NCBI GenBank assembly: GCA_026387405.1
Contig: JAPLLV010000026.1
Coordinates: 1-33,969, forward strand
Length of the DNA stretch: 33,969 nt
DNA from: Candidatus Omnitrophota bacterium
GTDB taxonomy: Bacteria; Omnitrophota; Gorgyraeia; Gygaellales; Profunditerraquicolaceae
Direction of reading: 5' to 3'
A program made the position numbers and the translations under genes. Positions 690 to 9,614 of this stretch are shown here, one piece after another (the stretch's first letter is position 1; every line of letters begins with the position of its first letter). Below the pieces are notes generated by a model. That model did no database searches. It had not been told where the DNA came from and worked only from the letters and a program-made list of their open reading frames with translations.

Positions 690-1697
690 TTAATGTTTTT
701 TGCCAGTGATACCCCAAAGTAAATGTTCAAAAGGATTTGGCTTTTTCTTGCGAAAATCTACCCATGTCATCTGTCGTAAAAAAATTGGAAGTTCTGGAAC
801 TTGTTTACAGTTAGGAAGAATAACGGGGATTACAGGACATCCCCTTCCAACAAACTCTTGTAAAAAAGCTTTTACTTCTAATCTCTGCCAAGGCCCAATT
901 CCATTTTGCCCTACAAATACTACAGCAGTTCTTATGGAGGATATTTGTTCTTCTAAGATATTTTGCCATGTTCTACCCGGCGGAAGCTGATCCTCATCAA
1001 ACCAAGTTTTAATACCAGCTTTCTTTAATCGGTTTTTCAATTTTGTTATTCGCGTTTTATCTTGACTATTATAACAAATAAAGGCATCAAATAGGCTCTT
1101 AGTTCCTAAATCCCAATATTCACAAATATCCATACCTTGTCGGCTTGATAAACATATATCATCTAGAATCTTTTTTATATCATTAAGTATTTTATTTTGT
1201 TTTTTAGATAAGTGGCTGGAGCAATTAGCGCATACGAAAGAACATCGCATTCCTGTATCTATGTTTGTTTTATCTTGCATGAAATCATTAATACAACCTG
1301 TGTTATCGCTATGCGTTGAACCCAAGCTGTACAGATCCATTAATATATCGCATATCAAATATGCGGCTCCGTTATTTCTAGATAACTTTGTTAACCATTG
1401 CCAGCCATAAAGTGAAACAATAATTATATTTCCATCAGCTTCCCAAAAATAATTATTATCGTATTTCTTATTTGTAAATAAAATTAAAATATCCGCTTTT
1501 TCTGTATCTTTGGTTAATTGTTTTCTTATTGCATTATGAGTTGAGGGAGATGACACTTCATCCGCATTAATCTGAAGTTTTCCCTTACCAGAAGAGATAT
1601 TAAGGAAGCTAACTTTACGATTTATACCTTTTATTACTTGAGAAACATTTATCTTGACTGCTGAATCTTGAAAAACAATAATTTTGGTATTATCCAT
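690..1697 (-). CDS. TIR-domain protein with N-terminal Cys/His-rich module
   Basis: C-terminal FDAFICYNSQDKTRITKLKNRLKKAGIKTWFDEDQLPPGRTW...PWQRLEVKAFLQEF...VIPVILP is a TIR domain; N-terminal H-x3-TGC-x2-DF...GMR...C-x2-C motif. Confidence 0.85.
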   Translation of the reverse strand: MDNTKIIVFQDSAVKINVSQVIKGINRKVSFLNISSGKGKLQINADEVSSPSTHNAIRKQLTKDTEKADILILFTNKKYDNNYFWEADGNIIIVSLYGWQWLTKLSRNNGAAYLICDILMDLYSLGSTHSDNTGCINDFMQDKTNIDTGMRCSFVCANCSSHLSKKQNKILNDIKKILDDICLSSRQGMDICEYWDLGTKSLFDAFICYNSQDKTRITKLKNRLKKAGIKTWFDEDQLPPGRTWQNILEEQISSIRTAVVFVGQNGIGPWQRLEVKAFLQEFVGRGCPVIPVILPNCKQVPELPIFLRQMTWVDFRKKKPNPFEHLLWGITGKKH

Positions 1698-2003: not shown

Positions 2004-3491
2004 ATGCAAGCCAAATGCGCTATCTACACAAGAGTTTCCACAGACAACCAAGCTGAAGTTGAATTTAATTCCTGCCAAGCGCAAGAAGAAAAGATTAAAT
2101 CTTTTATAAATAGCCAAGAAAATCTTTTGGTTTTTAAGGTGTACAGTGATGCTGGTTTTAGTGGGGCTGACTTGGAGCGGCCGGCACTCCAAGAAATGCT
2201 TAGAGATATACGAGAGAACAAAATCAATGTGATTATTGTCTATAAGATAGACCGGCTCACGCGCTCGCCAAAAGATTTTTATGCCTTAATGGAAATTTTT
2301 GATCAATACAAGGTAGATTTTATTTCCATAACCGAGAGATTTGATACCTCTACCCCGTCAGGAAGGCTTTTGCGTAATATTATGCTTACTTTTGCGCAGT
2401 TTGAGCGTGAACTGACTAGCGAAAGAACAAAAGATAAACTCTTAGAGCGGGCGAATAAAGGAATGTGGAATGGCGGCAATGTTCCTTTCGGCTATAAAGT
2501 AGTAGATAAGCGGCTGGTGCCTGATGAGCAAAAAGCGCAAAAATTAAGAGAGATTTTTGCGCTTTTTACCAGCGCTGGCTCCTTAGCCGAAGTCTATAAG
2601 GTGCTAAAGAGAAAACAAGTGTTTAATGATAAAAATTTGCCTTTTAGCAAGGCGCACTTGCAGAGCATCTTGAAGAACCCTGTTTATATAGGCAGGTTTC
2701 GGTATTCCGGCAAGATTTATCAAGGAGTGCACCAGCCGCTTATTTCGGAAGGTTTATTTAACCACGTCCAGCCGTTCTTTAGAGATAAGACGCGTAAGCT
2801 GCGCCTCTATAAGGATTATAAGCTTGGTGGGTTAGTCAAATGTATAGAGTGCGGATCTATAATGACATCTTCGCACACTAATAAAGGAAATATGCGACGC
2901 TATTACTATTACCGATGCACAAAGACGTTTAAGCAGGATTGGCGCGCTTGTTCTACGCGGCAAGTTAACGCCGATAGGTTAGAGGGTTTTGTAATTGATA
3001 ATCTCAAGCGGATTTCCTTAGATACCAATTACATTGATAGTTTGATTTTCAAGCTTAATTTTGAGGGCTCGCGCGTTCGCCAAGGACTCGAACCAACTGA
3101 TTTATGCTCTGAAACTGTCCAGAAAAACTTAAAAGAGTTCGTGGATTATATTGAAAAAGCGAGCAAAATTGAGCAGGCTTTGATAATGCGAAAATACATT
3201 AAAGACATTCTTTATTCCAAAGAATCCATCCAAATAAATATGCTTTGCCTTGCGGAACCAATTAACAGGCAAAGCATTAAAAATCCCGCCCCTCTTGAAG
3301 AGAGCGGGGTTTGCGGCCGGGCGCGGGCGGCCGCAAACCCAACAGTTCAGGTAAATTTCCAAACAAAAAGGGCTACTGTTAACAGTAGCCCTTCCTTAAA
3401 GATGGCTCCCCCTCGAGGACTCGAACCTCGGACCTGGTGGTTACACTTAACCCGAAATTACTTTCGGAAGCGGACTATATCTTTGCCATAG
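2004..3491 (+). CDS. Large serine recombinase (resolvase N-terminal, Recombinase and zinc-ribbon domains); C-terminal tail from about 3280 probably not native
   Basis: AIYTRVSTDNQAE..., YKIDRLTRSPKDFY, CIECGSIMTSSHTN...YYYYRCT; RBS aaggagg upstream; tail encoded by the repeat, the tRNA terminator and antisense tRNA. Confidence 0.93.
   Translation: MQAKCAIYTRVSTDNQAEVEFNSCQAQEEKIKSFINSQENLLVFKVYSDAGFSGADLERPALQEMLRDIRENKINVIIVYKIDRLTRSPKDFYALMEIFDQYKVDFISITERFDTSTPSGRLLRNIMLTFAQFERELTSERTKDKLLERANKGMWNGGNVPFGYKVVDKRLVPDEQKAQKLREIFALFTSAGSLAEVYKVLKRKQVFNDKNLPFSKAHLQSILKNPVYIGRFRYSGKIYQGVHQPLISEGLFNHVQPFFRDKTRKLRLYKDYKLGGLVKCIECGSIMTSSHTNKGNMRRYYYYRCTKTFKQDWRACSTRQVNADRLEGFVIDNLKRISLDTNYIDSLIFKLNFEGSRVRQGLEPTDLCSETVQKNLKEFVDYIEKASKIEQALIMRKYIKDILYSKESIQINMLCLAEPINRQSIKNPAPLEESGVCGRARAAANPTVQVNFQTKRATVNSSPSLKMAPPRGLEPRTWWLHLTRNYFRKRTISLP
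3279..3340 (-). repeat. Copy 3 of hairpin repeat (inverted) plus a truncated head-to-head partner
   Basis: 3279-3316 is the exact reverse complement of 1-38; 12-bp inverted repeat gggtttgcggcc (3307-3318)/ggccgcaaaccc (3329-3340). Confidence 0.85.
3365..3391 (-). terminator. Rho-independent terminator of tRNA-Asn
   Basis: Minus strand GGGCTACTGTTAACAGTAGCCCTTTTT; perfect stem then U-run. Confidence 0.85.
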
Positions 3492-3705
3492 CTTACGCCT
3501 TAGGCAGCAGGTGCATAGTCTCTGAACCTTCCCCTTTCGGGGCTCGGCTGCTGATTACCCGCGCTTTCGCGTTTGGGCTTCCAGCAATTCTCCTGCAGTT
3601 TCAACCACGGTTTCCCGTAGAAGCTGCGCTTTCAAGCATTTTTGCTCGGCCTGCCTCTGGCAGGCCTCGCACAGCCACTCGCTCTACCGACTGAGCTAAG
3701 GGGGA
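3403..3705 (-). tRNA. tRNA-Asn(GUU), interrupted by a group I intron in the anticodon
   Basis: Exons tcccccttagctcagtcggtagagcgagtggctgt + taaccaccaggtccgaggttcgagtcctcgagggggagcca; joined loop CTGTTAA; CCA encoded. Confidence 0.9.
3444..3670 (-). other. Group I intron in tRNA-Asn (between U35 and U36)
   Basis: GTTCAGAGACTA and AAGATATAGTCC core elements; starts after U and ends in G; internal guide CGCAGCT pairs with GGCTGT|G across the splice site with a U.G pair. Confidence 0.9.
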
Positions 3706-3747
3706 ATTCTAAACCTATTTTAACGGATTCCCAGACAAAATCAAGAC

Positions 3748-8747: not shown

Positions 8748-8841
8748 TGGCGGAGAGGGCGAGATTTGAACTCGCGAGACAGCTTTTCAACCGTCCAGCG
8801 GTTTAGCAAACCGCCGCACTAGACCACTATGCGACCTCTCC
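8748..8841 (-). tRNA. tRNA-Ser(GCU)
   Basis: GGAGAGG/CCTCTCC acceptor, loop TTGCTAA, long variable arm, encoded CCA. Confidence 0.93.
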
Positions 8842-9614
8842 TAAAATCTTTTCCATCTATCCAAGAACTTTGTATTACTTGAGCCCACTATCGAAAGATA
8901 TTTATTCACTTCCGCTTTCGCAGAAACCGTAATATGCACGCCTTTCAAAGAAGTTTTAATTCCCAGATTCGAAAAAATCTCATAGGCCGATCTAAGCAAA
9001 GGCTTAGAACAGCTGGTAAAATCCAGCTTTAGATACTCATACCATTTATTATTAACTTTATATCTATGGCAGTAAAGACTACCGTCTGTATCAACGAGTC
9101 CGCGAAGACAAGCCTTCTGGAATTCCACATCACTCATAATCCAAGCGGGAATATCTACCTGATTTTTAACCTTGTTGCCTGCTTTGAGTCCCTGCTTCAG
9201 AAGAAAAGCGATAACGCTCGCGCTACTGATAACTATATCAGCTCCCAGGCTATCTTTTCTCTTTGAAATTTTATGCTCAACAGCGAATAAACGTTTAATG
9301 AGCCTGGCTACATGCTCCGCAAATTCCCAATCAGTCTTATAATTAAACGAAATAGTGAGCTGATATTTACTGCGAATGCCCCCATCTCCCAGCATGATAC
9401 CAATTAACTTAGCTAATTCAACGCTTCGTGAAGGCTTTTTTATTTCTTTTAGAGTAACGAAATTCCGCTCCCGAGCAAGATCCGGATGCAATCTAAAAAA
9501 ATCACAAGTGCGCTTACCGCCCTTGCTTCTTCCTTCCGGCGTGCCGGGATTGCCATATAACTCAACACGCCTTAAACCACCTAATCTTGATCTAGCAGCT
9601 CGTGAAATTACCAT
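8841..9614 (-). CDS. LAGLIDADG family homing endonuclease, free-standing
   Basis: LAKLIGIMLGDGGI and CLRGLVDTDGSLY dodecapeptide-type motifs; N-terminal YGNPGTPEGRSKGGKRT segment. Confidence 0.85.
   Translation of the reverse strand: MVISRAARSRLGGLRRVELYGNPGTPEGRSKGGKRTCDFFRLHPDLARERNFVTLKEIKKPSRSVELAKLIGIMLGDGGIRSKYQLTISFNYKTDWEFAEHVARLIKRLFAVEHKISKRKDSLGADIVISSASVIAFLLKQGLKAGNKVKNQVDIPAWIMSDVEFQKACLRGLVDTDGSLYCHRYKVNNKWYEYLKLDFTSCSKPLLRSAYEIFSNLGIKTSLKGVHITVSAKAEVNKYLSIVGSSNTKFLDRWKRF

Follow-up and report, generated by a model that had tools for sequence, protein, structure and literature searches.

On the minus strand of the window, by which we mean the whole stretch of 33,969 nt that was analysed, lies a tRNA-Asn(GUU) gene (3705..3403) that is interrupted after U35 by an insert of 227 nt (Table 1). 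The initial annotation had described two halves of a tRNA-Asn(GUU) about 227 nt apart on this strand, an insertion after U35, an intron ending in G and an encoded CCA in the 3' exon. All of this agrees with what we find, and the distance is exactly 227 nt. The terminator claimed for the gene fared less evenly: a GGGCTACTG-TTAA-CAGTAGCCC hairpin followed by TTTTTG can be read directly just downstream of the tRNA, but a pattern scanner lists no terminator there. With the insert removed, the sequence folds as tRNA-Asn and is identical at 76/76 positions to the intact tRNA-Asn of a genome from another genus of the same family (G051, locus L237), which settles the host identity given earlier; two further intact genes (L238 and L239) agree with it at 75/76. 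Because the intact gene of G051 supplies an empty site, the insertion point can be placed between U35 and U36 and the exons can be recognised as undecayed. Judged from sequence, then, the exons are not decaying and the junction is exact.

Table 1. Features of the interrupted tRNA-Asn gene and its intron, in window coordinates
Feature	Position	Strand	Basis
Promoter-like site TTGATT-16-TAAAAT (sigma-70-like)	3717..3744	-	Upstream of tRNA; consensus scan only
5' exon of tRNA-Asn, ending CUGU (positions 32-35)	3671..3705	-	Identical to first 35 nt of intact G051 tRNA-Asn
Group I intron, 227 nt, last base G	3444..3670	-	RF00028, 70.5 bits; intact homologue fixes junction
P1 strand and GC-rich hairpin in P1 loop	3648..3670	-	Relatives have the same hairpin, then an HNH gene
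Internal guide GCAGCT, pairing with exon GGCTGT	3622..3627	-	Fold; GCAGC retained in relatives
P3 5' strand GCAGG	3592..3596	-	Pseudoknot pairs in 16 introns
P7 5' strand GACTA (guanosine-binding helix)	3516..3520	-	RF00028; pair counts
P3 3' strand CCTGC	3507..3511	-	Pair counts in 16 introns
P7 3' strand TAGTC	3473..3477	-	RF00028; pair counts
3' exon of tRNA-Asn, first base U36, CCA encoded	3403..3443	-	Sequence; intact homologue
Terminator-like hairpin and T run	3365..3391	-	Read from sequence

The insert was identified as a group I intron by several features. The Infernal check that had been proposed for it (cmscan) gives a match to Intron_gpI (RF00028) over 3643-3451 on the minus strand with 70.5 bits (E 3.8e-16), above the gathering score of 50 and covering the full model. 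The family model recognises the core P3-P8 with P7 and J8/7, and P3 and P7 have the expected pseudoknotted arrangement. The core words quoted in the initial annotation, GTTCAGAGACTA and AAGATATAGTCC, are present and contain both P7 strands. P1 is formed by GGCUGU/GC (the slash marks the splice site) with GCGCAGCU, so that the guide pairing with GGCTGT/G and the U.G at the 5' splice site, both of which had been anticipated, are seen in the fold, and the last base of the intron is G. In the unconstrained minimum-energy fold of the pre-tRNA (-95.1 kcal/mol) P1, P2 and P4-P9 all form, with a z-score of -4.07 and 0/200 shuffles equally stable; a P10 pairing was looked for in the intron and none was seen. 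With its position in the anticodon loop and a functional-looking spliced tRNA, the insert has what is expected of a bacterial tRNA anticodon-loop group I intron, and by its looks it may be of an IC3-like subgroup.

The structure was also examined by covariation, for which 48 pairs, distributed over ten helices and including P3 as a pseudoknot, were counted on 16 tRNA-Asn introns. The cells pair in 93.5% of cases compared to 75.1% in shuffles, a percentage biased towards the window, whose sequence served to draw the structure. Compensatory changes are stronger evidence than this percentage: 32/48 pairs have changes on both sides in the 16 relatives' introns, against 22.5 in shuffles, and the covariation score is 0.566, against 0.202. 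When the partners are slid by one to three columns, the pairing falls to 31-49%. The P3 pairs are 100% standard in the 16 introns, with compensatory changes in 3/5, and P7 pairs at 98.8%.

No intact tRNA-Asn was found among the listed tRNA genes, read by anticodon, of this 92.9% complete assembly, and it is likely that the genome has no intact copy. The same list holds no intact tRNA-Tyr; two intact CAU tRNAs were found in the assembly, neither of them resembling an initiator. For Tyr, fMet and Asn alike, the only gene found in the assembly has a group I intron. On contig 76 (L002) the sole tRNA-Tyr(GUA) found carries a 204-nt group I intron after U35 with a GCAG guide. On contig 9 (L118 2100-2812, minus strand) the initiator tRNA-fMet has a group I intron after U33, whose ORF matches PDDEXK_5 (E 2.5e-43). 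The 23S rRNA gene on contig 21 of the same genome contains two weaker group I intron matches, both below threshold (L004, L006).

A survey of tRNA-Asn genes in related genomes, which had also been proposed, covered 237 Omnitrophota genomes, 137 of which match the 5' half of the tRNA. In 72/137 the gene is uninterrupted and in 65/137 it is interrupted, 14 of these 65 having also been read directly as introns and the others inferred from the pattern; an interrupted and an intact tRNA-Asn occur together in 0/137. There is an excess of G31 among the interrupted genes, to which we give no weight as the count ignores kinship.

The arrangement extends well beyond this phylum. A scan of public genomes for a tRNA-Asn 5' half whose next base is not T returned at least 116 interrupted-type stretches, and the scan and the relatives together give at least 119 distinct introns at U35/U36 with a fitting 3' half. 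They come from Omnitrophota, Bacillota, Nitrospirota, Pseudomonadota, Myxococcota, several Patescibacteria groups, Cyanobacteriota, Planctomycetota and others, mostly as metagenome bins, for which individual phylum labels may be wrong. The earlier impression that an Asn(GUU) host is uncommon therefore does not hold among uncultured bacteria. In core trees, which are quick, built on short cores and of modest support, the introns cluster by host tRNA (Asn, Tyr, fMet, Arg, Lys) with four host changes, the minimum possible, and each lineage therefore seems to keep to its own site. The 20 Tyr introns in the relatives form one cluster. Group I introns were also seen in tRNA-Lys(UUU) and tRNA-Arg(UCU) of relatives (L007, L024, L034, L037, L039 and L058, L080, L086, L088), each with a cluster of its own. 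Guides read from individual intron sequences retain GCAG in both the Asn and the Tyr introns, including those whose hosts differ at stem base 31, which suggests that recognition is mainly of the loop CUGU. As the guide pairs mainly with these anticodon-loop bases, changes in the anticodon stem of the host should matter little.

Members of the group that are longer than the window intron carry a gene. In tRNA-Asn introns about 500-690 nt long, an ORF that starts in the P1 loop and has its end over the guide and P2 encodes a protein of about 107-125 aa, or more where the frame is extended. All 28/28 aligned members match PHROG_2255 (HNH endonuclease) and have in common an HH motif, a CANCH motif and two CxxC pairs; Pfam HNH matches them weakly. 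On its own strand the window intron lacks any ORF of endonuclease size, as had been stated, and hence a homing-endonuclease gene. Its closest relative is the intron of L054 (94% core identity), which does have the HNH gene, and the GC-rich hairpin that precedes this gene in L054 is kept in the window intron. The simplest reading of these sequences would be that the window intron lost its endonuclease gene. A search of the rest of the genome gave no match to the HNH protein, and current mobility therefore lacks support.

There are other ways in which the locus could be read. ARAGORN without introns reports no tRNA at the split locus and in intron mode prints tRNA-Thr(UGU), since the intron has GT at either end and its junction can be shifted by two bases. 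A splice two bases earlier would indeed make the host tRNA-Thr(UGU), with a spliced loop that is formally possible. However, an intact tRNA-Thr(UGU) is present elsewhere in the genome, the intact homologue in G051 reads CTGTTAAC, and in the fold the G of the guide stands opposite U35 and not U33. The homologue and the U.G rule exclude the Thr host, and we leave it practically no chance. The interrupted gene could also be a dead copy, with an intact tRNA-Asn in the part of the genome missing from an assembly that is 92.9% complete and in 84 contigs. A second, intact gene beside a decaying interrupted one had been named earlier as a concern; none was found in the assembly, and the exons equal the intact gene at 76/76 positions. 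The intron core is moreover intact and covarying, and 65 sampled genomes of the phylum have the same arrangement with both kinds together in 0/137, which makes a dead copy very improbable.

A further question is whether RNA alone would be enough. Some group I introns require protein help for their removal (reviewed in PMC3984707), and the same could be true here; we consider it unlikely, given a compact core and a very stable fold like those of small tRNA introns of bacteria for which self-splicing is reported, the Azoarcus tRNA-Ile intron (cited in PMC4033280) among them. Our preferred reading, of which we have little doubt, is that a group I intron of a site-specific lineage, here without the HNH gene, sits in the anticodon of what is apparently the only tRNA-Asn(GUU) gene of this Omnitrophota bacterium and would be spliced out to give a normal tRNA-Asn. 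In the folded precursor RNA the guide GCAGCU would hold the 5' exon GGCUGU, and a guanosine bound in P7 would cut after U35. The freed U35 would then attack just behind the G that ends the intron and be joined to U36, giving the normal tRNA-Asn. Full-length members of this site-specific lineage would home by means of the HNH endonuclease gene in their P1 loop, and the window copy, lacking this gene, would probably be inherited mainly with the chromosome. We would give an even chance to the broader proposal that these introns are a large, so far uncatalogued lineage specialised for the tRNA-Asn anticodon, which moves by the P1-loop HNH endonuclease and has spread across many bacterial phyla, and that the Asn, Tyr and initiator tRNAs of this genome need the removal of introns from three lineages.

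Group I introns in the anticodon of bacterial tRNAs are already known, and it is the breadth of the Asn lineage, the HNH endonuclease and the three tRNAs that appear to depend on intron removal that raise the interest of the present case. The hosts given in the papers covered are tRNA-Leu(UAA), fMet, Ile2(CAU) and Arg(CCU), with claims for cyanobacterial Arg, Gly and Lys (PMC8450103, PMC4033280, PMC5733544), and tRNA-Asn is not named as a bacterial intron host in these three papers. Among the papers that our literature search covered, none describes a bacterial tRNA-Asn host. A 2025 preprint (Nakagawa et al. 2025, bioRxiv 2025.07.03.662931), as it is cited in PMC12641178, concerns group I introns in tRNA genes of Patescibacteria; going by this citation, some of its introns may be among the Patescibacteria members collected here, and we therefore do not call the tRNA-Asn host undescribed. 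The window intron resembles the known anticodon-loop introns (Leu UAA and fMet of cyanobacteria; Ile2 CAU of Azoarcus, Acidovorax and Burkholderia; Arg CCU) in its small size, its loop, the U before the 5' splice site, the 3' G and a structural RNA as host, but differs in having tRNA-Asn(GUU) as the host and in being cut between U35 and U36. The group I introns of the tmRNA T-loop, known from 21 phyla (PMC11915505), are similar to the tRNA-Asn introns in occurring in many phyla, mostly without an endonuclease gene, and in their boundary rules. They lie in another host gene and another loop, however, and the endonucleases reported for them are LAGLIDADG where those of the tRNA-Asn introns are HNH. 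The tRNA-fMet introns with a PD-(D/E)XK endonuclease (in cyanobacteria and on contig 9 of this genome) likewise bear an endonuclease and sit in the anticodon loop, but the tRNA, the position, the intron cluster and the endonuclease type are all different.

Such split genes matter in practice because standard annotation misses or mislabels them, ARAGORN giving either nothing or Thr at the tRNA-Asn, and genomes can therefore seem to be without an essential tRNA. The close relatives also offer empty sites as well as forms of the tRNA-Asn intron with and without the endonuclease, and this makes the system suitable for testing the gain of homing introns, the loss of their endonucleases and their persistence in essential genes.

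Several neighbouring genes of the window should be mentioned. A serine recombinase gene with Resolvase, Recombinase and zinc-ribbon domains (2004-3491, plus strand) is convergent with the tRNA-Asn, and its frame reads on into the intron after crossing first the terminator and then the tRNA 3' exon in antisense (..APPRGLEPRTWW..). The recombinase region appears to be an element inserted at the 3' end of the tRNA-Asn. Adjoining it is a TIR-domain gene (690-1697, minus strand; TIR_2, E 1.3e-23), which is possibly a cargo or defence gene of the integrated element; a TIR-protein probe gave no match in viral contigs. Further away and outside any recognised intron lies a gene for a LAGLIDADG_3 protein (8841-9614, minus strand), the last base of its stop codon being also the first base of a tRNA-Ser(GCU) at 8841-8748.
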